Part shown: piece by piece, positions 1-12,813 of the stretch
How positions within the stretch are numbered: position 1 is the stretch's first letter
How the letters are laid out: each line of letters begins with the position of its first letter
Assembly (NCBI GenBank): GCA_014764515.1
Contig: JACXWD010000010.1
Location: 1 to 60,231, forward strand
Reading direction: 5' to 3'
DNA length: 60,231 nucleotides
Source: Candidatus Polarisedimenticola svalbardensis
GTDB lineage: Bacteria > Acidobacteriota > Polarisedimenticolia > Polarisedimenticolales > Polarisedimenticolaceae
Notes under the pieces: model-generated
Told to the model about the DNA's origin: nothing
The model's database searches: none
What the model saw: only the letters and a program-made list of their open reading frames with translations
Program-made: the position numbers and the translations under genes

Positions 1-108
1 ACCCGTGTCATCCTGTCCGACGAAACCGAGGGCAGGATGGTCGTTGCGGATGCGATCCGCTGGGTACCTTCATCCGGCGGTTCCACCGCGGACGCAGTCG
101 AGGAGTGA
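1..108 (+). CDS. C-terminal end of a golvesin-like domain protein (5' truncated)
   Basis: Frame 1 is open from the window edge to TGA at 106-108 and encodes 35 residues. They include a hydrophobic strand followed by MVVADAIRWVP. This 'V-ADA-R' ending is typical of golvesin/xanthan-lyase-like C-terminal beta domains found on secreted hydrolases and amidases. The next gene starts 4 nt after the stop, so the two are probably cotranscribed. The N-terminal catalytic part, if any, lies outside the window, so only the terminal domain can be named. Confidence 0.65.
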   Translation, partial: TRVILSDETEGRMVVADAIRWVPSSGGSTADAVEE

Positions 109-112
109 TGTA

Positions 113-1180
113 GTGAGAACAGTTCTTATATTGATGACGTTGCTCCTGCTGCTGACCGGCTGTGGCGGCGGCGGCCAGGGCAACGAGGTCGAATTCAGGG
201 TTCCGGTGTCGGTCCGTGAAGTCGGCACCGATACGGTAGAAGACCGCATTGTGGCTACCGGCACCTTGCGGGCGGAGCGGATCGTTTCCCTCCGTGCGGA
301 ATCCGCCGGTATCCTTCAGATCGCTACCTCAGCCTCCGGGCGAAGGCTGGCGGAAGGGGACCGGGTCGCCACCGGCCAGGCTATCGCGGAGATCACCGGG
401 GAAGATGTGCGTCTCGCCGCCCGGACCGATTCAAACCGCTCCCGGTACCAGGTGGCGCTGCGGGACTTTGAGTCGAAGAAACTCCTGTTCGCCGAAGGGC
501 TGATCAGCGATAACGAACTGCAGTCGGCGGAGTCGGCGCTGGCCGACGCCCGCCTGGAACTGGATCGCTCGCTGTTCACCGAGAGCCGCTCGAAACTGCT
601 GACCCCGATGAGCGGGGTCTTGCTTCAACTGGCCCGGGACGAGAACGGCCAGCCGCTGGCCGACGGCCAGTTGGTATCCGCCGGCCAGATGCTGGCCCAG
701 GTGGCCAACACCGCCACACTCATCGCCGACATCAACCTGGTCGGTCCGGATGCCGCCAGGGTAAGGCCGGGGCAGGTGGTGCGGTTGCGGCATCACGCGT
801 GGGAAGACAGCACATTCGCCGGCAAGGTGATCCGGCTGGCGCCGTCGGTGGATCCGACCACCCGGACACTGCGGATCGAGGTCGGGCTGGACAACCGGGA
901 CGGCAAGCTCAGGCCGGGTATGTTCATCGAGGCCACGGTGGTGGCGGAACGGAGGCCGGATGCGGTGGTGGTGCCACGGGCTGCGGTTACGGAGCGAGCC
1001 GGCCGCAAGGTGCTGTTCGTGCTCAAGGGCCAGAAGGTGGAGCTCCGTGAAGTCGGCCTGGGGCTGGGAGATGATGACATGGTGGAGGTCCGCGGCGGGA
1101 TCGAGCCGGGTGACCGGGTTGTAACCAAGGGTCTCGAAACCCTCACCGACGGCGCCAGGGTGCGTGTCTCCGGAAGCTGA
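113..1180 (+). CDS. RND efflux periplasmic adaptor (membrane fusion) lipoprotein
   Basis: The product is a 355-residue membrane-fusion protein that would bridge an inner-membrane RND pump to an outer-membrane channel. The GTG start at 113 has AGGAG at 101-105, seven bases upstream. An upstream in-frame start at 5 is possible but would put a long tail before the signal. The N-terminus has a hydrophobic run followed by LTGCGGGG, a lipobox, so the protein is probably an inner-membrane-anchored lipoprotein like AcrA. A biotinyl-lipoyl-like half-motif, a helical hairpin (about residues 100-170) and a beta-barrel with PSVDPTTRTLRIEV follow in HlyD/AcrA order. RND1 begins 3 nt after its stop. No TolC-like gene is in view. 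Confidence 0.93.
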   Translation: MRTVLILMTLLLLLTGCGGGGQGNEVEFRVPVSVREVGTDTVEDRIVATGTLRAERIVSLRAESAGILQIATSASGRRLAEGDRVATGQAIAEITGEDVRLAARTDSNRSRYQVALRDFESKKLLFAEGLISDNELQSAESALADARLELDRSLFTESRSKLLTPMSGVLLQLARDENGQPLADGQLVSAGQMLAQVANTATLIADINLVGPDAARVRPGQVVRLRHHAWEDSTFAGKVIRLAPSVDPTTRTLRIEVGLDNRDGKLRPGMFIEATVVAERRPDAVVVPRAAVTERAGRKVLFVLKGQKVELREVGLGLGDDDMVEVRGGIEPGDRVVTKGLETLTDGARVRVSGS

Positions 1181-1183
1181 GTG

Positions 1184-4100
1184 ATGGAAGCCCTCTCACG
1201 CATGGCCGCCAATCGACCGGTAGCGGTGGCTGTGTTCGCCGCCGCCATGACGATCCTGGGATGGATCGCCTGGGGCGACATGCCCCTGGATCTCCTTCCG
1301 GATATTCAGAGTCCGACTATCGTGGTATCCACCAGTTCCGGTGACCGGCCACCGGAAGAAATGGAACGGATCTATGGTGAACGGGTAGAACAGTTGCTGT
1401 TCACCGTTCGGGGTATCCGCTCCGTTGAACAGGTCGCCCGAACAGGCCGTTTGATCGCCACCGTCACCTTCGAGTGGGACACCGACATGGATCTCGCCCT
1501 GGTGGACGTCGAAAAATCGGTGGGCCTGTTGCGCTCCGATCCGGATCTGGAAGAAGTGCTGGTGCGCCGTCTCGACCCCAGACAGGCGCCGGTGCTTTCG
1601 CTGGGACTGGTTGCTCCGGAAGGACGCCCGGATCTGGCCGAGCTTCGGCGAGTGGCCAGGCGGCAGGTCGCTCCGGCGCTGGAGCGGCAGGACGGCGTAG
1701 CCGAAGCCCGTGTTCTGGGGGGCCGGGAGCGGGAGATCCGGATCCAGGTGGACCGTTACAAGTTGCAGGCCCACGGCATCACCCTTTCGGAACTGGAAAA
1801 CAGGGTGCGGGCGGCGAACGTTGATCTCAATGCCGGAACCCTGGAAGAGGGCGGAAAAGTCTACCTGGTTCGCGGGATTTCCCGGTACCGCACCCCCGAG
1901 GATGTCAGAAGGGCGGTCATCCGCTATGCCAAGGACGCCGAGGGTCGCAATGTGCCGGTGCGCGTCGGCGATGTGGCCGTAGTCTCGGTAGGTGACGCAG
2001 AGATTCGTCACCTGGTTCGAGTGGACGGCACCGAGGGGATCGGCCTTTCGATCTACAAGGAAGCCGGATCCAACACGGTGGCGGTGTCCAGGACGGTGCG
2101 TGAGGCGCTGGCTGGCATCGGCAAGGATCTTCCCGGTGTCGAGGTCCGGGTGGTAGCCGACGAAGCGGCCCTGGTGGAGCAGGCTCTTGAAGATGTACAG
2201 CAGGCTGCACTGATCGGGATCGCACTGGCGATCCTGGTGCTGATCCTGTTCCTGCGTTCTCCCGGCCCCACCGTCGTCGTGGCCACGGCAGTGCCTGTCT
2301 CCCTGCTGGCCACCCTGTTCCTGATGCACCTCAACGAGGGCACCCTGAACATCATGACCCTGGGAGGTCTGGCCCTGGGCGCCGGAATGCTGGTGGACAA
2401 CGCCATCGTGGTGGTGGAGAACATCTACAGGCACCTGACCCAGGGGGAAAATCCGGTAGACGCCGCGGCTCGGGGTACATCCGAGGTGGCCGGGGCGATT
2501 ACCGCCAGCACCTTGACTACCTGTGCCGTGTTCCTGCCGGTGATTTTCGTAAAAGGTCTGTCGGCGCGACTGGTGTCCGGGCTGTCCTTCGCCGTGGTGG
2601 TTTCACTGCTGGCCTCCCTGGTTGTGGCCGTGTTCCTGATCCCGGCCCTGGCCCAGTGGCTGCTGCCGCGGAAGAAAGCCAAAGCGCTTGATCCCGGGAG
2701 GAGCCGGGTCGAACGGTTTGTTGCCGGCCTCCTGAAGCAGCCGCTCCTGGTGGTAGTCATCGGTGTTGTGCTGGTAACGGGCGCCGGCTGGATGTTGCGT
2801 TCCCTGGGGACCGAACTCCTTCCCCCGGCCGACCCGAAACAGTTCAGCGTCCGGCTGGTAGGGCCGCCGGGGCAACGGGTCGAATCGACGTCCAGCATGG
2901 TTGCCGGTATCGAGACCGTTCTTCGCGAGGCTGCCGGCGACGATCTGCAGGCCCTGATGTCCGAGGTCGGCAGGCTGCCGGAGGACGATCGCCAGATCCG
3001 GGAAGAGCAGACCGAGGAAAATACGGCCCGGATCCTGGTGCGGCTGGCGGAGGACGGCGCTCCCGCCCGCATTGTGGCGGACTCCGCTTCCCGGGCCCTT
3101 GAAGGACTGGAAGGCGTCGACCTTTCCTGGGAAGTCGGCAGTTCGGCCCTGAGCCGTGCACTGGGAACATCCGGGCCGCCGATCGCAGTTGAGATCTCCG
3201 GCGAGTCGCTTCAGGATCTGAGAGCCGCCTCGGACAAGGTGCTTGAGGCTTTCCGGGAGCTACCCGAGATCTGGAACCTGAACTCTTCATTCGAGGGTGG
3301 GCCGCCGGAACTGCGCATTGTCCTTGAACGAAACATTGCCGACGGGCTCGGCGTTGACCTCAACCAGGTTGCCACCGTTCTGGAAGCATCCCTGGACGGG
3401 CGCAAGGTCACGGTGTTGTCGGTGGGCGATGAGGAACGGGACGTAGTGCTCTTGTTGCCCCGGGTTCGCCGCGACGACCTGGTTCGGGTTCCGATCACCT
3501 CCAGTGACGGTGTGGAGCTGGTACTCGGCGACGTGGCCCGGTTCATTCCCGAGGAAGGCGCCCGTGAGATCTACCGTCGGGATCAGCGCCGGGTCGCCCG
3601 GGTTACCGCTCGGATCGCGCCAGGTTACGAATACCCCCAGGCGATCGCCGCAGTGGCTGGTGCTCTGGCAGGTGTTGACGTGGCGCCCGGCCTGTCCACC
3701 GCCATCACCGGAGAAGAGGAAGAGCGGATCCGGACATTCCAGGAACTGACCTGGGCCGCGCTTCTGGCGCTGCTGCTGGTGTTCATGGTTCTGGCCGGCA
3801 CGTTCGAGTCGTTGATCCACCCGCTGACCATCGTCTCCTCGGTGCCCCTGGCGCTGACCGGCGTGGCCGTGATTCTGTTCGCCCTGGGACGTCCGGTAGG
3901 CGTCATGGAGATGCTCGGCATTATCGTTCTGGCCGGGGTGGCGGTGAACGACGCTATCCTCCTGGTGGATACCGCCCGGCGCCTGATGTCGGAAGGGTTG
4001 CAACGGGAACAGGCCCTGGCCAGGGCGGCGGGGCTGCGGCTGCGGCCGATCCTGATGACCACCGCCACGACGGTGCTGGCCCTCCTGCCCCTGGCCCTTG

Positions 4101-4246
4101 GGAGCGGCGAGTCGGCGCGGTTGCGCAGTCCGATGGCGCTGACGGTTATCGGAGGGATTATCGCCTCCACCATCGCCTGCATGACGGTCATACCGTGCCT
4201 GTACCTGTTGCTGGATCGACTGCGGCCGGCGCGGAAGACAGGTTGA
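1184..4246 (+). CDS. RND efflux permease 1 (AcrB/HAE1-like)
   Basis: This is a full-length RND permease (about 1,020 residues) that would use the proton gradient to export small molecules from the periplasm or inner leaflet. It shows the duplicated architecture: TM1, a large periplasmic loop, TM2-6, TM7, a second loop and TM8-12. The TM4 motif GMLVDNAIVVVEN carries the proton-relay Asp followed by Asn, as in many non-AcrB pumps. The TM10 motif is GVAVNDAILLVD. GTG 1181 and ATG 1184 are both possible starts; I prefer ATG because GGAAG lies seven bases upstream. The gene lies 3 nt after the adaptor and 4 nt before the second pump, which suggests a heteromeric MdtBC-like pair. The substrate cannot be predicted. 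Confidence 0.95.
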   Translation: MEALSRMAANRPVAVAVFAAAMTILGWIAWGDMPLDLLPDIQSPTIVVSTSSGDRPPEEMERIYGERVEQLLFTVRGIRSVEQVARTGRLIATVTFEWDTDMDLALVDVEKSVGLLRSDPDLEEVLVRRLDPRQAPVLSLGLVAPEGRPDLAELRRVARRQVAPALERQDGVAEARVLGGREREIRIQVDRYKLQAHGITLSELENRVRAANVDLNAGTLEEGGKVYLVRGISRYRTPEDVRRAVIRYAKDAEGRNVPVRVGDVAVVSVGDAEIRHLVRVDGTEGIGLSIYKEAGSNTVAVSRTVREALAGIGKDLPGVEVRVVADEAALVEQALEDVQQAALIGIALAILVLILFLRSPGPTVVVATAVPVSLLATLFLMHLNEGTLNIMTLGGLALGAGMLVDNAIVVVENIYRHLTQGENPVDAAARGTSEVAGAITASTLTTCAVFLPVIFVKGLSARLVSGLSFAVVVSLLASLVVAVFLIPALAQWLLPRKKAKALDPGRSRVERFVAGLLKQPLLVVVIGVVLVTGAGWMLRSLGTELLPPADPKQFSVRLVGPPGQRVESTSSMVAGIETVLREAAGDDLQALMSEVGRLPEDDRQIREEQTEENTARILVRLAEDGAPARIVADSASRALEGLEGVDLSWEVGSSALSRALGTSGPPIAVEISGESLQDLRAASDKVLEAFRELPEIWNLNSSFEGGPPELRIVLERNIADGLGVDLNQVATVLEASLDGRKVTVLSVGDEERDVVLLLPRVRRDDLVRVPITSSDGVELVLGDVARFIPEEGAREIYRRDQRRVARVTARIAPGYEYPQAIAAVAGALAGVDVAPGLSTAITGEEEERIRTFQELTWAALLALLLVFMVLAGTFESLIHPLTIVSSVPLALTGVAVILFALGRPVGVMEMLGIIVLAGVAVNDAILLVDTARRLMSEGLQREQALARAAGLRLRPILMTTATTVLALLPLALGSGESARLRSPMALTVIGGIIASTIACMTVIPCLYLLLDRLRPARKTG

Positions 4247-4250
4247 TCCG

Positions 4251-7200
4251 ATGAGCCGGGACGGCAGATCGGGTTTCAGCCTGTTCGCGCTGCCGGTACG
4301 CAGACCGGTGGCGACCCTGATGTTCTTCATCGGGGTGGTCATCCTGGGCTGGGTCGGCCTGCGCCAGATCCCGATCGAGTTGATGCCGCCGCTCACCGGC
4401 GACAACCTCTATATCCAGTTCAATCGCCCGGGGAGCGAGCCGGAAGTTGTGGAGCGGGAAATCCTGCTGCCGCTGTCCGGTCGCGTCGCCCGATTGAAAG
4501 GTGTTCAGGAGACTGAAGGGACCGTCACCGGTTCCGGCGGCCAGATGCAGATCCAGTTCGAGCCGGGTACCGATCTCAAGATCCGGGAACTGGAGATGCA
4601 GCGCATGGCCGCGGACCTGGCCCGGGAACAACCGCTGGGAACCAGCATCGTTGTCCGGTCCGACGATTTCAGTGCGTTCAGCAAGTTCGTCATGACGGTG
4701 CAGGTTACCGGCATGGCCGACAGCAACGCCTTGTACGATTTCGTCGATGATCGTATTCGGGCCCGGCTCTCGGCGGTGGCCGGGGTGTCCCAGGTGCTGG
4801 TCACCGGAGGCCAGGGCAGGGAACTGGCAGTACGGATCGATACCGACCGTTGTGCCGCCTACGGCATCCGGCCCCAGGAAGTGACCGCCATGCTGGGAAG
4901 GTCGGTGCAGCGCCGTAGTTTCCTGGGAGGGATCGAGGAGGAGGGGATCCGCACCGCAGTGGTTCTGGACGGCCGCCCCGCCGGTATCGCATCCCTGGGA
5001 GACCTCCAGATCCGGCCCGGGAGCGCCGTTCGCCTGCGGCATGTAGCCGATATCGATTTTGGTGGCGGCGACGAGACCTCCCTGTACCAGGTCAACGGCA
5101 AGCCGGCAGTCGGCTTGATCCTCTTCAAGGAAGACAGCGCCAACCTGGTGGAACTGGGCCGGGACCTGAACGCCAGGCTGCTTGAACTCGAGGAAGATTT
5201 CAGTGCCTACGGTCTGGGGTTCGTTGTCGGATTCGATGCGGCGGAACTGGTGGAGGAGCAGCTCGACCGGTTGAAAAAGCTGGGCCTGTCCGGATTCATC
5301 ATCGCCCTGGCGGTGCTGTTCCTGTTCCTGCGCGAGTGGCGGGCGGTGACCGTCGTCGCTGTGGCTGTTCCGGTCTCTCTATTGGCCGCAATCGGGATGC
5401 TGTACTTGGGCGGCCAGTCCCTGAACCTGATCTCGCTGTTCGGTCTCGCCATGGGGATCGGCATGCTGGTGGACAACAGCATCGTTGTTTATGAAGCGGT
5501 GCAGCGCCAACTGGAACGGGGCGCAAGCCCCGATGCCGCGGCGGAGGGCGGTGTGCGCCGGACAGTCCGGGCGATCCTGGCTGCCAGCCTGACCAACGCC
5601 GTCGTTTTTCTTCCGGTTGCATTTACCGATTTCGAGAACACCCTGATCCAGAGCCTGGTGACCGTCCTGGCCCTGGCGATCCTGCTGCCCCTGGCCGGGT
5701 CCCTGCTGGTTGCCGTAGGCCTGGTGCCGCTTCTGGCCCGCAGGATGGCGGCGCCGGCAGCCCTGGCCCGGCTGGCCCGCCTGCGTGAGCGCCGTGAACG
5801 GTTCGCCGGTTTCATACCGCCGGATCGGGCCAGGGGTCTGTTCTCCGGCATGCTGAAGAATGCCCTGCGCCGGCCCGGGTGGTGGCTGGCCGGGAGCGCC
5901 TTCGCCGTGTTGGTGACGGTAGTGGTCGCCCTCCCCCTGGTGATGGTGAGCCTGGCGAGCCAGGACCCGCCGGAAGCAAGCCAGGTCCAGATGGAAGTGG
6001 AGGTCCCGGCCGGCGGTTCTTTGGAAGCGACCCGGGAGGAGTTCGCCGCCCTGGAACGGGCTGTCGGTGAACTGCCCGGCATCAAGTCGGTGGAGAGCTT
6101 CATCCGGGAAGACAACGGCAGCATCACCGTCTATCTCGTGGACGAGGAAGACCGGCCTGAAGAGATCAACGCCGCCAAGGTCCGGAGCGTTCTCACCACG
6201 GCGGCCGATCGCCGGAGCGGTGTTTCGGTTCAGCCCCCTGGCGCCAGGCAGGGTGGCCAGGGCGGCGGCGGCCAGGGCGGTGGCGGCGGCTTGACGGGAC
6301 AGGACGCGGCGGAAGTGGTGCTGTCCGGTCCGGACTACCGCCAGCTGGACCGTATCGCCAGGGACCTGCGCGCCCAGCTCGCTTCCATCCCGGAGATCGC
6401 CGGCTCCGTCTGGACCTCCACCCGTCCGGGGCGGGAGGAACTCCAGGTCCTGCCGAATGAAGCGGAGCTGGCCGCGTTTGGAATTACCGCTGACCAGATC
6501 CTGCCGGTATTGCAGGTGCTGCGGCGGGAAGGATTTTCCATCCAGGTCGGACATCTGCAGTCCGACGGGCGTGAAATACCGCTGACAGTCAGGAACGGCG
6601 AAGAAGACGAATACGAGGTCAGCAACCTGAGAGAACTGCGTTTGCCCACCGAGGCCGGTGTGCTCCCCCTGGGGGCGATAGCGAGTACGAGGAAAATGCC
6701 TCCGCCGCCGGCTATCCAGCACCGGGACGGCCGACGTGAGACTTCCGTTTTCTATCGTTTTGGACCACAGGCCCCGGAAACCGGCCCGGCCCGGCTGGCG
6801 CTGGAGAACCAGATCAAGGAGGCGATCCAGGAAGTTCGCCGGCCTACCGGCTACACCATCGAAACTCCGGATGCCGACGAGTCGTTCAGTTGGTTCAAGA
6901 AGATCCTGATCCCGGTGCTGTTGCTGTTGTTTGCGATCCTGGCTATCACCTTCGAATCCCTGACCATGCCGCTTCTGGTTTTGATAGCACTCCCCCTCAC
7001 GGTACTGGGGGCGACCTGGACCCTGGTGCTCAGCGGAACCGCCGCCGGACCGATGGCGCTGGCCGGGGCCCTGGCCCTTATCGGTCTGACGGTGAACCCG
7101 GCGATCCTGCTGGTGGACCGGATGCAGCAGCGGGTTCTCTACAGCAACACCACCCCAGGCGCCGCAGCCCTGGCAGCGGTTCGGGAGCGGACCCGCCCGG

Positions 7201-9041
7201 TGCTGATGACCGCTGCAACAACCATCCTCGGCCTGTGGCCGCTGGCCCTGACCACCGGACGCCAGAACGAAATCTGGCCGCCCTTCGCCGTCATCGTCAT
7301 GGGAGGCCTGCTGGTCTCGACCCTTATGACCCTGGTGATCGTTCCCCTGGGGTTCGTGATCCTGCGCAGGCTGGATACTCTGTTCGGCCGCCTTGGCCCG
7401 TGGATGGTGCTGGGCTGGGCCGGCGCCGTGACCGCAATCATGTTGCCGCTGTTCCGCATCGGTTTGATCGAGACGGCGACCTGGAAAACCTTGACCACCA
7501 TCATCGTCGCCGGGCTGCTGCTGGGGCTGGCGGCGCTGTTGTTCCCGAAAGAGAAGCGGCCTGAGCCGGAAGCCGGCGAAGATGGTCCACCGGTGCTGGA
7601 AGTCCGGCACCTGGAGAAGGTTTATGGCCGGCCCGGCCCGGTGGCCCGGGCATGGCGCCTGCCGGAACGATTTGCGCAATACGTGCTGGGTCGTGGCGGG
7701 AAGCCGTTCGACCCGCGGGACGCCCTGGCCTCCCTTCTGCCCCTGGTGCTGGTGATCAGCGGAGCCCTGTACCTCGCCTTGTCGGTGCGTTCTGTATTTT
7801 GGCGGTTGATCTATACCTATCTTGTGGCCGGCCTGGTCACCCGGTTCCTGCAGGGTATCCGGCGGGCCCGGGGGAAGGCCGACGAAACCGGCGCCGTCCT
7901 GCCCGGCGGCATCGAGAGCGTCGTTTCGTTCTTCGTCCCGTGGGCAGCCACGTTATACCTGGTCATGGACGGTTACCTTTTGCCGAAACTGGCCGGGGCC
8001 GGGAAGGACTTCGGGCTGTGGCTCGTGGTGTTCCTGGTGATCATCGTTGCGGTCTGTCATGGAGGCCGGCGAACCGCCGTTGCCTTGAGCCGCGACCTGA
8101 TAAAAGAGCGTCCCACCGACATCAGGTTCCGAAGGGTTCGCGGTGTGTGGCGGTCCATCGCCCGGAAGTTGTTCGGGTTCGGGTTGAAACGGGAAGAGGT
8201 TCGGGCGCTTACCGGTGTTCAGTTCCGAACGACCCGGGGCATGATCGGCATTCTCGGTCCCAACGGCGCCGGCAAAACCACGCTGCTTCGGATGCTGGCC
8301 GGCATCCTGGATCCTACCGCCGGTACGATCTGGCTTGGGAACGTGCGGCTTGAAAAACTACGCAAGTATCTGGCCCGCTGGGTCGGCTACCTGCCCCAGG
8401 ATTTCGGACTGCCCCAGGATATGACCGCCAGGGGATATTTGCAGTACTACTCCATGCTGTACGACCTGCCGGAAGAGAAACGTGACGAGCGTGTCAACCG
8501 GCTGCTGGAGGATGTCGGCCTGCTGGAGAAGGCCGACCAGCCGATAGGGAGCTACTCCGGTGGCCAGCGCCAACGGGTCGCTGTTGCTCGCACCCTGCTG
8601 CGCCTGCCCCCGGTGATCATTGTTGATGAACCGACGGTCGGCCTGGATCCCCGGGAGCGGATACGGTTCCGGAACCTGCTCTCCCGGCTTGCCGCCGGCC
8701 GGGTTGTGTTGTTCTCCACCCATGTGGTGGAGGATGTGGCGGTGGCGTGCGAACGGGTGATCGTCATTACGCGGGGGCGAATGGTTTATGACGGCGAGCC
8801 GATCGGCCTGGCCGAGAAAGCTGCCGGACGGGTCTGGGAGGTCCGGCTGACGGCGGAGGAAGAAGGTACCCTGCCGGCAGGCGTGCTGGTGGCGGACCAG
8901 GTGCCGGAGGCCGGTGGTATTTCCAGGAACCGGGTCCTCAGTCGCACCCGGCCGCATCAGGCAGCGGAGTTGATTGAACCTTCCCTGGAAGACGGCTACC
9001 TCTGGCTTGTGGGCGAAGGGTTGGCGGAGGCGGAAGCATGA
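4251..9041 (+). CDS. RND permease fused to an ABC ATPase split by a four-TM insert
   Basis: The product has 1,596 residues. About residues 1-1040 form a second complete RND permease (TM4 motif GMLVDNSIVVYE, TM10 motif GLTVNPAILLVD). Two extra TM segments follow (about 1051-1103). An ABC ATPase starts at about 1114 with VLEVRHLEKVYG, the usual first strand and A-loop Tyr. It is then interrupted by about 190 residues containing four predicted TM helices (about 1159-1272). It resumes near 1317 with the strand before Walker A (GPNGAGKTT, 1336-1344). The signature YSGGQRQ is at 1435, Walker B IIVDEP at 1456-1461 and the switch His at 1491, so the ATPase looks intact. A Gly/Gln-rich linker lies near 665-682 in the second periplasmic loop. 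The stop overlaps the ABC-2 permease start by 4 nt. Confidence 0.93.
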   Translation: MSRDGRSGFSLFALPVRRPVATLMFFIGVVILGWVGLRQIPIELMPPLTGDNLYIQFNRPGSEPEVVEREILLPLSGRVARLKGVQETEGTVTGSGGQMQIQFEPGTDLKIRELEMQRMAADLAREQPLGTSIVVRSDDFSAFSKFVMTVQVTGMADSNALYDFVDDRIRARLSAVAGVSQVLVTGGQGRELAVRIDTDRCAAYGIRPQEVTAMLGRSVQRRSFLGGIEEEGIRTAVVLDGRPAGIASLGDLQIRPGSAVRLRHVADIDFGGGDETSLYQVNGKPAVGLILFKEDSANLVELGRDLNARLLELEEDFSAYGLGFVVGFDAAELVEEQLDRLKKLGLSGFIIALAVLFLFLREWRAVTVVAVAVPVSLLAAIGMLYLGGQSLNLISLFGLAMGIGMLVDNSIVVYEAVQRQLERGASPDAAAEGGVRRTVRAILAASLTNAVVFLPVAFTDFENTLIQSLVTVLALAILLPLAGSLLVAVGLVPLLARRMAAPAALARLARLRERRERFAGFIPPDRARGLFSGMLKNALRRPGWWLAGSAFAVLVTVVVALPLVMVSLASQDPPEASQVQMEVEVPAGGSLEATREEFAALERAVGELPGIKSVESFIREDNGSITVYLVDEEDRPEEINAAKVRSVLTTAADRRSGVSVQPPGARQGGQGGGGQGGGGGLTGQDAAEVVLSGPDYRQLDRIARDLRAQLASIPEIAGSVWTSTRPGREELQVLPNEAELAAFGITADQILPVLQVLRREGFSIQVGHLQSDGREIPLTVRNGEEDEYEVSNLRELRLPTEAGVLPLGAIASTRKMPPPPAIQHRDGRRETSVFYRFGPQAPETGPARLALENQIKEAIQEVRRPTGYTIETPDADESFSWFKKILIPVLLLLFAILAITFESLTMPLLVLIALPLTVLGATWTLVLSGTAAGPMALAGALALIGLTVNPAILLVDRMQQRVLYSNTTPGAAALAAVRERTRPVLMTAATTILGLWPLALTTGRQNEIWPPFAVIVMGGLLVSTLMTLVIVPLGFVILRRLDTLFGRLGPWMVLGWAGAVTAIMLPLFRIGLIETATWKTLTTIIVAGLLLGLAALLFPKEKRPEPEAGEDGPPVLEVRHLEKVYGRPGPVARAWRLPERFAQYVLGRGGKPFDPRDALASLLPLVLVISGALYLALSVRSVFWRLIYTYLVAGLVTRFLQGIRRARGKADETGAVLPGGIESVVSFFVPWAATLYLVMDGYLLPKLAGAGKDFGLWLVVFLVIIVAVCHGGRRTAVALSRDLIKERPTDIRFRRVRGVWRSIARKLFGFGLKREEVRALTGVQFRTTRGMIGILGPNGAGKTTLLRMLAGILDPTAGTIWLGNVRLEKLRKYLARWVGYLPQDFGLPQDMTARGYLQYYSMLYDLPEEKRDERVNRLLEDVGLLEKADQPIGSYSGGQRQRVAVARTLLRLPPVIIVDEPTVGLDPRERIRFRNLLSRLAAGRVVLFSTHVVEDVAVACERVIVITRGRMVYDGEPIGLAEKAAGRVWEVRLTAEEEGTLPAGVLVADQVPEAGGISRNRVLSRTRPHQAAELIEPSLEDGYLWLVGEGLAEAEA

Positions 9042-9754
9042 GGGCGCAACGTCTGAAGGATGAGATCCGGCTGCTGCGCCTTTCGGCCAGACTGCTCATG
9101 GGCAAGCGGTTCTGGCTGGTGCCGCTGTTCACGATCCTGTGGCCGACGGCTTTGTGGCTGTTTCTGCTGTGGGGGTGGACCGAGAACGCGTACGTGCCAA
9201 CCGATGCCCAGACCGGCTTGATCGGCACGCCGTTGACGGTGCTCGGCATTTTCCTGGGCGGCAAGGTGATCGCAGGGGAGATCGACAAACGTACCCTGGA
9301 GATCGCCTACACCGTTCCCGGAGGGGCCCACCGGATCTGGATTTCCAAGCTGATCGTATGCGTGTTGACCCTGGCGGTTGCGGAAGCGCTGCTGGCAGGC
9401 GCCGCATACGCCTTCTTCACCGATTACCCGCTGGGTGCGCTGTACGGCGCCATGCAGTCGGCGCTGTTCTACCTTGTGCTGTCCATGAGTCTGGCGGCGC
9501 TGTTCAAGTCGGAGGCCAGCGGCGGTCTGGTGGTGATCGTCGTCCTGCTGTTGAACTGGTTGTTCACCGGGTTCGGAGCCAATCAAATCCGGATTTCACC
9601 GTTCTGGAATCCTGCAGTCTTGCTCGGAAGAGGCCGGGATCCGGCAGACGTCCTGGCCTGGACGGTACAGAACCGGATCGGGTTCCTGTTCGCCATCGCA
9701 GCGGTGATCGCCATGGGGTTCACCCGGGCGGAGCGGCGGGAAAAGCTGCTCTGA
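9038..9754 (+). CDS. ABC-2 type permease subunit
   Basis: The protein has 238 residues and about six hydrophobic segments. The pattern AGEIDKRTLEIAYTVP before a TM segment is typical of ABC-2 export permeases, where the cytoplasmic coupling region follows TM2. The start overlaps the preceding stop by four bases (ATGA), indicating translational coupling. The natural partner is therefore the ABC ATPase domain at the C-terminus of the fused RND protein. The C-terminus is short and basic (RAERREKLL). The substrate is unknown. Convergent with the next gene, with only 9 nt between the stops and no clear terminator. Confidence 0.85.
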   Translation: MRAQRLKDEIRLLRLSARLLMGKRFWLVPLFTILWPTALWLFLLWGWTENAYVPTDAQTGLIGTPLTVLGIFLGGKVIAGEIDKRTLEIAYTVPGGAHRIWISKLIVCVLTLAVAEALLAGAAYAFFTDYPLGALYGAMQSALFYLVLSMSLAALFKSEASGGLVVIVVLLLNWLFTGFGANQIRISPFWNPAVLLGRGRDPADVLAWTVQNRIGFLFAIAAVIAMGFTRAERREKLL

Positions 9755-9763
9755 TCTCCAGAG

Positions 9764-10309
9764 TCAGTGCAGCTGAACGTTGACCGAGTCCGGCCCGGGA
9801 TGGAGGAGTCGCACGCCATCCGTCCGGCGCCATCGGGCCAGCATCGTGCCATCGGTGCCGTTGAACGTAACGCTGCTGTAGCCCGCCGTGGAGGCGATGC
9901 GGCTGGCGTCTTCCATCAGCCGTATCCGGGATGCGGGGCGAAGTTTCATCCAGCGGTTGATACTGATCTGGGCCACAACATCCGGTGGCGTCACCTGGAC
10001 CTGAAGAATCTCCGGTGTTGCCCGGAACGAATTCAGGTTGAGAGCGCCCGGCTCCAGAACCGGCTCCTGCACCAGGAAGGTCCAGCCGCCAAGGAGGACA
10101 ACCAGCAGCATCATGGTCCAGACCATCGGCTGCATGATGCCCCTTTGAATGTGGGCATCGGTCGGTTCCACCGCAGTGTTATCCAGGTCCCTGGACAGCT
10201 CCTGGATGATCTCGTCGGTAGGGACGGTCTCAGGCTCAGGCCTGACGGCCGGCGCCTGGTAGTCGTCCAGAGCCGGCCTGTTCCGTGGGTGTTCCATATC
10301 CTGGGCCAT
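9764..10309 (-). CDS. Hypothetical single-pass membrane protein
   Basis: This 181-residue protein has a soluble, acidic, Pro-rich N-terminus of about 65 residues, one TM segment (WTMMLLVVLLGGWTFLVQ, about 67-84) and a C-terminal domain with no recognisable motif. The ATG at 10309 has GGAGG six bases upstream, which decides the start even though the frame stays open much further. The topology suggests a type II membrane protein with a periplasmic C-terminus. I do not recognise the family. It is divergent from glgA and convergent with the export operon, so it may be a single-gene unit. Confidence 0.7.
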   Translation of the reverse strand: MAQDMEHPRNRPALDDYQAPAVRPEPETVPTDEIIQELSRDLDNTAVEPTDAHIQRGIMQPMVWTMMLLVVLLGGWTFLVQEPVLEPGALNLNSFRATPEILQVQVTPPDVVAQISINRWMKLRPASRIRLMEDASRIASTAGYSSVTFNGTDGTMLARWRRTDGVRLLHPGPDSVNVQLH

Positions 10310-10336
10310 GTATTCCTCCGCTGGTCTACTCTTTAG

Positions 10337-10365
10337 AACGTAGAGTCCGGGGGACCGGGGATCAA
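10337..10365 (-). promoter_or_regulatory. Candidate promoter for the 9764-10309 gene
   Basis: Reading leftwards, TTGATC (10360-10365) and TACGTT (10337-10342) are separated by 17 bases, about 28 bases before the start codon. The match to consensus is moderate, and the spacer is GC-rich and self-complementary (runs of G and C). Confidence 0.3.
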
Positions 10366-10486
10366 CTTCCCGATATGTAAGGAGCCGTTCCAGGCCTCCT
10401 TGAGGTGGATAAACCTTGGAATACAAGGCAATCGTCCGGTGGTACAATCGGTCTTCCCTGTTGGAAGAACCCGAACGGAGGTCGCC

Positions 10487-11959
10487 GTGAACCCGCTGCG
10501 GATCTGCTTCGTCTCCTCCGAAGTCGCACCTTTCGCCAAGACCGGCGGCCTGGCCGACGTCTCGTCCGCCTTGCCGGGATTCCTGGCAGGCGCAGGTCAT
10601 GACGTTCGTGTGTTCATGCCGATGTACGGCTCTATCAATCATGACCGCGCGGACATGAAACCGGTCCACGGGCTGACCGATATCGCGGTGGATATGGGAG
10701 GGCGACAGGTAACCTGTTCGGTTCATGAAACAGTCACCGCACCGGGAGGAGCGCCTCTTTACCTTCTGGACTGCCCCGAGTACTACCATCGCGAGGCTCT
10801 CTACGGTTCCGACCCGGATGAGCACCAACGCTTTGCCATGCTGTGCCGTGCGACGTTGGAGAGTTGCCAGCGCCTGCAGTGGGGTCCGGATATCATCCAT
10901 TGCAACGACTGGCACGCCGCATTGATCCCGTTGTATCTCCGAACCCTTTACGCCTGGGACCAGCTGTTCAACGATACGCGGACCGTATTGACCATCCACA
11001 ATATCGCCTATCAGGGCGTGTTCAGTTCCGGGATCACCCACGATCTGGGGATGGCAGGTCACGAAAATATGTTCCACAGGGAGGACTTTGCCGCCGGCCA
11101 GGTCAATTTCCTGAAGACCGGTATCCTGTATGCCGACGCCATCACCACGGTGAGCGAAACGTATGCCCGGGAGATCCAGACCCCCGAATACGGCATGGGC
11201 ATGGAAGCCGCCCTGAAAGGCCGGGGCGGTTCGGTGATCGGAATTCTTAACGGTGTGGATTACTCGATCTGGTCGCCGGAGAATGATAGCGACATCCCCC
11301 GCCAGTACTCGGCGGACGGTCTGGACGGGAAGCGGGTCAACCGGGACCAACTCTTGTCGGAGCTGGGATTAAGCCCCGACCCGGTCGGCCCGGTTCTGGG
11401 TGTCATCTCCCGGCTGGCGTCTCAAAAGGGGTTTGACCTCATGTTCGGCGTTCTGCCGGAGATCCTGGCCGGAAACGATGTCCGGCTGGTTGTGCTGGGG
11501 AGCGGCGCCGAGTCTTACGAATCCTATTTCGCAACGCTTCAACTGGAATTTCCAGGCAAGGTCTGTTTCTACCGCGGCTTCAATGCCGGGCTGGCCCATC
11601 GCATCGAGGCAGGGTCGGATGTCTTCCTCATGCCGTCACGGTTCGAGCCCTGTGGCCTGAACCAGATGTACAGCATGCGATACGGGACGGTGCCGGTAGT
11701 TCGCAAGACCGGTGGACTGGCTGATACCGTGAAGATGTGGAACCCGGAAGACGGCAGCGGCACCGGGTTCGTATTCGACCATTTCAGCGCGGACGGGTTC
11801 CGCTGGGCGCTGCAAGCCGCCCTGAATTCCTTCAAAGATACCGAGGGGTGGCGCCGCCTGATGAAAAACGGCATGGAGCAGAATTATTCATGGAACAGCC
11901 AGGGTCGGCACTACCTGAACCTGTATACCCGTCTTCTTTCAGGGCGGCCTGTGAGGTAA
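10487..11959 (+). CDS. glgA: Glycogen synthase (ADP-glucose starch/glycogen synthase)
   Basis: This 490-residue enzyme extends alpha-1,4-glucan chains from ADP-glucose in the cytoplasm. The N-terminal GT5 domain begins with the ADP-glucose loop KTGGL (residues 18-22). The C-terminal half has RFEPCGLNQMYSMRYGTVPV, the E-x7-E nucleotide-sugar motif of GT-B retaining enzymes, followed by a second KTGGLADTV. The GTG start at 10487 has GGAGG five bases upstream, and length and start fit the family. No other glycogen genes are nearby. The stop codon TAA runs directly into the terminal inverted repeat of a transposase unit, so the original 3' end may have been altered by that insertion. Confidence 0.96.
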   Translation: MNPLRICFVSSEVAPFAKTGGLADVSSALPGFLAGAGHDVRVFMPMYGSINHDRADMKPVHGLTDIAVDMGGRQVTCSVHETVTAPGGAPLYLLDCPEYYHREALYGSDPDEHQRFAMLCRATLESCQRLQWGPDIIHCNDWHAALIPLYLRTLYAWDQLFNDTRTVLTIHNIAYQGVFSSGITHDLGMAGHENMFHREDFAAGQVNFLKTGILYADAITTVSETYAREIQTPEYGMGMEAALKGRGGSVIGILNGVDYSIWSPENDSDIPRQYSADGLDGKRVNRDQLLSELGLSPDPVGPVLGVISRLASQKGFDLMFGVLPEILAGNDVRLVVLGSGAESYESYFATLQLEFPGKVCFYRGFNAGLAHRIEAGSDVFLMPSRFEPCGLNQMYSMRYGTVPVVRKTGGLADTVKMWNPEDGSGTGFVFDHFSADGFRWALQAALNSFKDTEGWRRLMKNGMEQNYSWNSQGRHYLNLYTRLLSGRPVR

Positions 11960-12022: not shown

Positions 12023-12685
12023 TCACAGGATATCGCTTCTTGGCCTGCCTATTGGGCGAAGCTTACTGAGTAATCCCAAACGCTCGGCAGTTTCTTGGAC
12101 CCAGTCATGATCTCCATAGGGCTGCTCTCTATTGAGACTTGTACGGACAGCCGCCAGCTCATCAGTTGTTAAGGGTTCGTTGACGAAAGATCGCCATAAT
12201 TTCGGAAGCTCAAGAGGCGATGGATCCAGTAGTGGATCATCATTACATGTCCGGCGCTGGAAACTGGACCATCGCCAGTTCATCACGTCATCAACAATTC
12301 CTGCGCGCACCGGATTTCTTTCAACATAGCGAACGACGGTCAAAAAATGATCATTCTCCTGGATCGGAGGAGCCTTGAATCTCCCTTCCCAGATCCGTCC
12401 GTTGACTCGGTGCCGTTTCCTGTGATGGTGAACCTGGCAGGTCATAAGCCAGTGTATCCACCTCCCAAGATCTCCATCCAGTCTCGGGCGGAGCACTAGA
12501 TGAAAATGGTTTGGCATCAGGCACCAGGCGAAGACATCTATTGGGATTCTGCTTTTTGCGCGGAGTAGGAGACTTTCAAAGAATCGGTAGTCAACCTCGT
12601 CGTGGAAAATAGTGTTTCGGTTGTTCCCGCGGTTCATAACGTGATGACAAACATTGCCCCGGGAAGCGCGAGCAGTTCTAGGCAT
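12023..12685 (-). CDS. REP-associated Y1 (HUH) transposase
   Basis: This 220-residue single-strand transposase belongs to the Y1/RAYT group, which cuts and joins DNA at REP-like hairpins. It shows the N-terminal HHVMNRGNNR pattern, the HUH metal-binding pair in MPNHFHLVL (His60, His62) and the catalytic Tyr120 in RYVERNPVRAG, all intact. The ATG at 12685 gives the family N-terminus MPRTAR. The frame is open upstream but the extra residues do not fit the family. The gene appears functional and lies inside a perfect inverted repeat, so it is probably the enzyme for that unit. Confidence 0.9.
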   Translation of the reverse strand: MPRTARASRGNVCHHVMNRGNNRNTIFHDEVDYRFFESLLLRAKSRIPIDVFAWCLMPNHFHLVLRPRLDGDLGRWIHWLMTCQVHHHRKRHRVNGRIWEGRFKAPPIQENDHFLTVVRYVERNPVRAGIVDDVMNWRWSSFQRRTCNDDPLLDPSPLELPKLWRSFVNEPLTTDELAAVRTSLNREQPYGDHDWVQETAERLGLLSKLRPIGRPRSDIL

Positions 12686-12813
12686 GCTGATTCCGGTGGA
12701 GGAGTGCTTCGTGGGCCGGAGGAATGATATAGCGGGTTGCTGCGATGCGGACCTGGTCGGCGCTGATCGGTTGCCACTATGCAACGAGGCGCGAGTTATA
12801 AGATTTTAGATAT

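Follow-up and report, generated by a model that had tools for sequence, protein, structure and literature searches.

An RND permease joined in one chain to an ABC ATPase with a membrane insert, and its possible role in a two-engine envelope transporter

The locus described here raises the question of whether a complete RND permease and an ABC ATPase interrupted by a membrane segment are encoded as one protein and, if so, what such a protein may do. We analyzed a window of 60,231 nucleotides (the whole stretch of DNA under study) from Candidatus Polarisedimenticola svalbardensis. A single open frame on the plus strand (4251-9041), starting with ATG, contains 1596 codons and encodes a fusion protein of 1596 amino acids. 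The Pfam profile ACR_tran matched residues 13-1038 (4287-7364) over practically its full length (profile positions 3-1020 of 1021; 1e-153), and phmmer linked this half, here called RND2, to solved structures of the AcrB/MexB type; ABC_tran matched residues 1331-1462 (4e-29). Between TM12 of the RND half and the first strand of the ATPase, AlphaFold2 placed two further TM helices, numbers 13 and 14 (residues 1050-1069 and 1076-1097; 7398-7541), joined by a short uncharged loop and absent from an earlier sequence-only reading of this DNA. The chain accordingly runs from the RND permease through two extra TM helices, strand 1 with the A-loop, and a four-TM insert to the remainder of the ATPase. 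Since Pfam and NCBIfam name just the two known domains, automatic annotation would hide this split and fused architecture.

We found the same fusion far beyond the window. When 60 relatives were searched, the long frame recurred at 48 to 58% identity in further genera and in a second family of the class, some of the genomes being single contigs. With a profile made from the insert region and a threshold of E<=1e-20, matches were obtained in 33 of the 396 genomes of Acidobacteriota, spread over 16 of 210 genera; some of these genomes, too, are single-contig. Outside this phylum, the fusion was present in 3 of 146 genomes in the order of a "Pseudomonadales bacterium" MAG (L063) and in 1 of 249 genomes in the phylum of a "Gemmatimonadetes" genome (L077), Gemmatimonadota; the most diverged fusions share about 28 to 34% identity over the whole protein. 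Homologues were thus obtained from about 37 genomes, and because the same fusion occurs in several phyla and in single-contig assemblies (e.g., G004 and G206), an assembly chimaera or a frameshift is excluded: the fusion is a real gene. This bears out the sequence-only reading, which had proposed a single-chain RND-to-ABC fusion and suggested a family search for it. We also considered a mis-binned contig in the Pseudomonadales MAG and rejected this: the fusion occurs in two more genomes of that order, which makes transfer or inheritance likelier. Among plasmids, no record covered 80% of the query, and the best matches were plain ATPases. A contig scan with generic ABC patterns, which gives no measure of rarity, named at least one fusion. 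The inserted ATPase was never seen as a short stand-alone gene among the profile hits in the 396 Acidobacteriota genomes and the other groups searched, where it lay in long frames or at contig edges, and the membrane insert inside the ATPase was kept throughout.

The ATPase itself is divided. Strand 1 and the A-loop (residues 1113-1125; 7587-7625) precede a membrane insert (residues 1126-1315; 7626-8195), behind which follows the rest of the ATPase core (residues 1317-1536; 8199-8858); Walker A begins at residue 1336, which is 211 residues downstream of the A-loop Tyr at 1125. In an alignment of 21 homologous tails, Lys1123 and Tyr1125 were invariant. Mean identity to the window protein was 61% at residues 1113-1130 and 63% in the ATPase versus 33% in the insert, implying that the segment ahead of the insert shares its evolution with the ATPase rather than with the insert. 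Furthermore, a strand 1/A-loop PSSM built from 25 ordinary ABC ATPases gave the pre-insert site the highest rank of any position in 21 of 22 fusions and the second rank in the remaining one, a sequence with unknown residues; the scores over the 90 residues preceding Walker A all stayed far below that of the pre-insert site. The segment IRFRRVRGVW after the insert, plausible by eye as an alternative strand 1, was rejected, being poorly scored, not conserved and missing in one locus (L023). An AlphaFold2 model of residues 1040-1596 (mean pLDDT, 86.5) contained a ten-residue strand at 1116-1125 before the insert and a strand at 1317-1327 after it. The two presumably pair with each other, because a segment is labeled as a strand only if it has a partner, and outside the ATPase there is no further strand of such length. 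By the PSSM, the invariant Tyr, the identity profile and the modeled strand, strand 1 and the A-loop aromatic residue belong to the ATPase domain.

All of the ATPase motifs, namely Walker A (GPNGAGKT), the Q-loop (YLPQ), the signature (YSGGQRQR), Walker B (VIIVDEPTVGLDP) and the H-loop (STH), were present and invariant or nearly so in the 21 homologues, the Walker B Glu included. The best NCBIfam ABC models were DrrA and GldA, and a Foldseek search with the ATPase part returned ABC ATPases, the best being TM_1403 (4yer), with a TM-score of 0.77 to 0.80 depending on the target. The domain is nevertheless not an uninterrupted soluble one, as about 190 residues with four TM helices are set into it. 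In the model, the insert consists of two amphipathic helices, four long helices (1155-1178, 1182-1206, 1220-1247 and 1254-1280) and another amphipathic helix; it had no match in Pfam up to E=5, and identity with a known domain was therefore rejected. A defence system was likewise rejected, as PADLOC matched just the generic ATPase parts. Positive charges lie on the loops predicted to be cytoplasmic, so that the even TM count and the sidedness hold, with both ATPase parts on the cytoplasmic side by charge distribution. The separation of strand 1 and the A-loop from Walker A by about 190 residues with four TM helices, the intact motifs and the cytoplasmic placement of both parts had all been claimed from the letters of the DNA and stand up well here; the structure prediction proposed along with them gave 1116-1125 as a strand. 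A four-helix membrane domain can thus be accommodated by an ABC nucleotide-binding domain between its strands 1 and 2, beside the adenine-stacking Tyr. To our knowledge, no described ABC protein has a four-helix membrane domain at this place.

Immediately downstream, and overlapping the stop codon of the fusion by ATGA, lies another gene (PERM; 9038-9754, plus strand). It encodes a six-TM ABC-2 (type V exporter) permease of 238 amino acids and was found directly 3' of the fusion in every locus whose 3' flank was read, about 27 in number. Its AlphaFold2 model (pLDDT, 91) had NosY, ABCG25, KpsM and PmtCD as top Foldseek matches, and those at probabilities of 0.9 to 1.0 were mostly of these type V exporter kinds (NosY, ABCG, KpsM and PmtCD), with weak E-values (0.03 at best). 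Its layout is that of a six-TM type V permease, and the long periplasmic stalk or domain of MacB/FtsX is absent. A conserved segment, GEIDxRTLEIAYTVPGG, resembles an ABC-2 coupling-helix motif. Its position in all loci read and the Foldseek matches thus indicate a dedicated six-TM permease partner for the ATPase; PERM is the obvious candidate, and the two would pair as subunits of one exporter. In one family of the phylum (f54; L143, L144, L145 and L146), a second small-permease copy follows about 0.5 to 1 kb after the first, perhaps providing a heterodimeric membrane part.

Fusion and PERM belong to a conserved six-gene set, a context that the sequence-only reading missed, the order in relatives being ATP1, P1140, adaptor, RND1, fusion and PERM. 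ATP1 is a stand-alone ABC ATPase of about 330 amino acids, paralogous to the fused one, and P1140 is an ABC-2-like permease of about 1140 amino acids; of three copies tested, two carry a Golvesin_C domain. In the window, the periplasmic adaptor (MFP, HlyD/RND_mfp; 2-1180, plus strand; HlyD_D23, 2e-21; RND_mfp TIGR01730, 7e-53) is cut at its 5' end by the contig start; its counterpart in a genome of the same genus (G001) has 421 amino acids. RND1, a stand-alone RND permease of 1021 amino acids (1181-4246, plus strand; ACR_tran, 3e-208), ends 4 bases before the fusion, which it adjoins in most relatives. The left part of the set lies on another contig of the same genome (C175, locus L026), which probably abuts the left end of the window. 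A P1140-type permease with a Golvesin_C domain stands beside a stand-alone ABC ATPase at the start of that contig (G000:C175) and at L025:8137-11553, and the ATP1-P1140 pair is divergently oriented in two loci (L024 and L147).

In different phyla, the fusion is accompanied by the block ATP1-P1140-MFP-RND1. P1140, adaptor, RND1, fusion and PERM lie together in the Gemmatimonadota locus. In G508, a genome of the Pseudomonadales order, two contigs share the set (loci L162 and L168), one with ATP1-P1140-MFP-RND1 and the other with fusion-PERM, and no part has been lost; fusion and PERM lie there between alcohol-dehydrogenase-like and urate-oxidase-like genes. In G037, a genome that is 74% complete and whose fusion lacks N-terminal sequence, no close RND1 accompanies fusion and PERM. 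We recognized no outer-membrane factor gene in the gene set. Farther along the window, the listed 528-residue frame at 9764-11350 (minus strand) overlaps a likely glycogen synthase gene on the plus strand (10400-11959); just about 176 of its residues are conserved in G001 (72%), and the real gene is therefore probably a short single-TM protein. An ORF at 12023-12784 (minus strand) carries MNRGNN...AWCLMPNHFHLV motifs that resemble those of REP-associated (Y1-type) transposases and has a homologue near the PERM gene of G001 (L032:6675-7361).

In a tree of the ATPases, the fused ones formed one clade (100/97) and the true ATP1 proteins another (99/90). Six duplicates of fused ATPases, recognizable as zero-length pairs, bore the ATP1 label, and the clades are clean without them. 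The single supported clade makes one origin of the fusion likely.

Is the RND half driven by protons? The TM4 Asp at residue 408 (the position of AcrB D407) was kept in all fusions covering it, and RND2 also retains RPxLMT in TM11; the second Asp, next to that of TM4, is mostly Asn in fusions. The TM10 Lys (AcrB Lys940) is Asn in every fusion and is likewise replaced in RND1, which makes proton coupling of RND2 uncertain. This Lys is not known to be universal among RND families. We regard proton drive of RND2 as plausible on these residues. Thus, the earlier statement that proton-driven and ATP-driven machines are joined stands for the RND and ABC domains, and we still only infer its "proton-driven" part, with the TM4 Asp kept and the TM10 Lys being Asn.

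The fusion and its gene set are best explained, in our view, by a two-engine envelope transporter, an account that we judge somewhat more likely than not. RND2 would assemble with RND1 and the adaptor into a tripartite pump, and the ATPase half, anchored through TM13-14 and the four-helix insert of the strand 1-strand 2 hairpin, would serve as the nucleotide-binding domain of an ABC exporter with PERM as its membrane part. The covalent link would dock the exporter onto the pump, locking two transporters in one complex. At the expense of ATP, a substrate, or a lipid or protein needed by the pump, might cross or leave the inner membrane and be handed to the RND part, which would carry the substrate on towards the outer membrane; the second ABC pair, ATP1 and P1140 with its periplasmic Golvesin_C-like domain, would belong to the same module. 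This account is supported by the constant position of PERM and its start/stop overlap in the window, by the likeness of its predicted fold and conserved segment to ABC exporter subunits, by the invariant ATPase motifs and the retained TM4 Asp, by the upkeep of the other four genes across phyla, including both split loci of G508, and by the separate clade of fused ATPases. It is weakened by the replaced Lys of RND2 and the lack of a recognized outer-membrane factor gene in the set, by G037, and by a mismatch of stoichiometry, as ATPases are dimers and RND pumps trimers. An RND1:RND2 heterotrimer could solve the latter. An RND heterotrimer is known for MdtBC. In a stronger version, a single polypeptide of an envelope-spanning complex would have both ATP hydrolysis and proton flow working on one transport pathway, with the hairpin insert coupling the ABC and RND engines; this seems to us possible but less likely than not.

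Pump and exporter might also work independently: fusion and co-transcription would then secure equal amounts and a common location, and the two would be coupled neither mechanically nor through a substrate. Each half is complete by itself, the linker with its two extra TM helices is long, and the two gene blocks are unlinked in G508, all of which would suit such an arrangement. A gratuitous fusion, however, would be expected to split sometimes, whereas the inserted ATPase never appeared as a short gene of its own in the groups searched and the insert was never lost; we consider independence unlikely. That the RND chain runs by way of extra TM helices into the ATPase, in a protein lacking the TM10 Lys of AcrB, could instead mean that the ATPase powers or gates the RND trimer via the insert, replacing or supplementing proton drive, with PERM as an accessory scaffold. 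But PERM is never missing and looks like a genuine membrane subunit of an ABC exporter, RND2 still has the TM4 Asp, and RND1 is also without the Lys yet has no ATPase, so that the missing Lys needs no ATPase to explain it; such gating appears quite unlikely. A last alternative borrows the principle of MacB/FtsEX: ATP cycles of fusion and PERM would drive a periplasmic conformational change, e.g., opening of the RND/adaptor complex, without moving a substrate. MacB-family proteins do so within tripartite systems (PMC8277102), but the long periplasmic stalk or domain that MacB/FtsX use is what the type V layout of PERM lacks, and we hold this to be very improbable.

The fusion bears on a general distinction: exporters of the RND and ABC types are placed in different classes, each with its own energy source, and a conserved chain joining them makes coupling of these sources testable. 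The sequence-only reading knew of no such architecture, and searches of 5.39 million open-access papers for RND-ABC fusions and for membrane inserts in the ABC ATPase gave no description of it. With HAE-type RND permeases (AcrB, MexB and MdtBC), the fusion shares the full-length ACR_tran fold, the adaptor, a second RND gene and the TM4 Asp; it differs in some 555 additional C-terminal residues, which hold the extra TM helices and the ABC ATPase, and in Asn for the TM10 Lys of AcrB. DrrA/GldA/NosF-type ATPases working with ABC-2 (type V) permeases (e.g., NosFY and KpsMT) are close in that the DrrA and GldA models score best, the structure is near TM_1403 (4yer) and NosF, and PERM is near NosY and KpsM; their known members are soluble subunits, whereas here the ATPase stands behind an RND pump and its first hairpin is broken by four TM helices. 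In MacAB-TolC, too, an ABC ATPase and a periplasmic adaptor act together in a tripartite exporter, although MacB is a four-TM ABC protein with the ATPase at its N terminus and no RND part (PMC8277102). The MacB-family layout of N-terminal ATPase, four TM helices and periplasmic domain is thus not that of the fusion, in which the ATPase is C-terminal, behind the RND domain.
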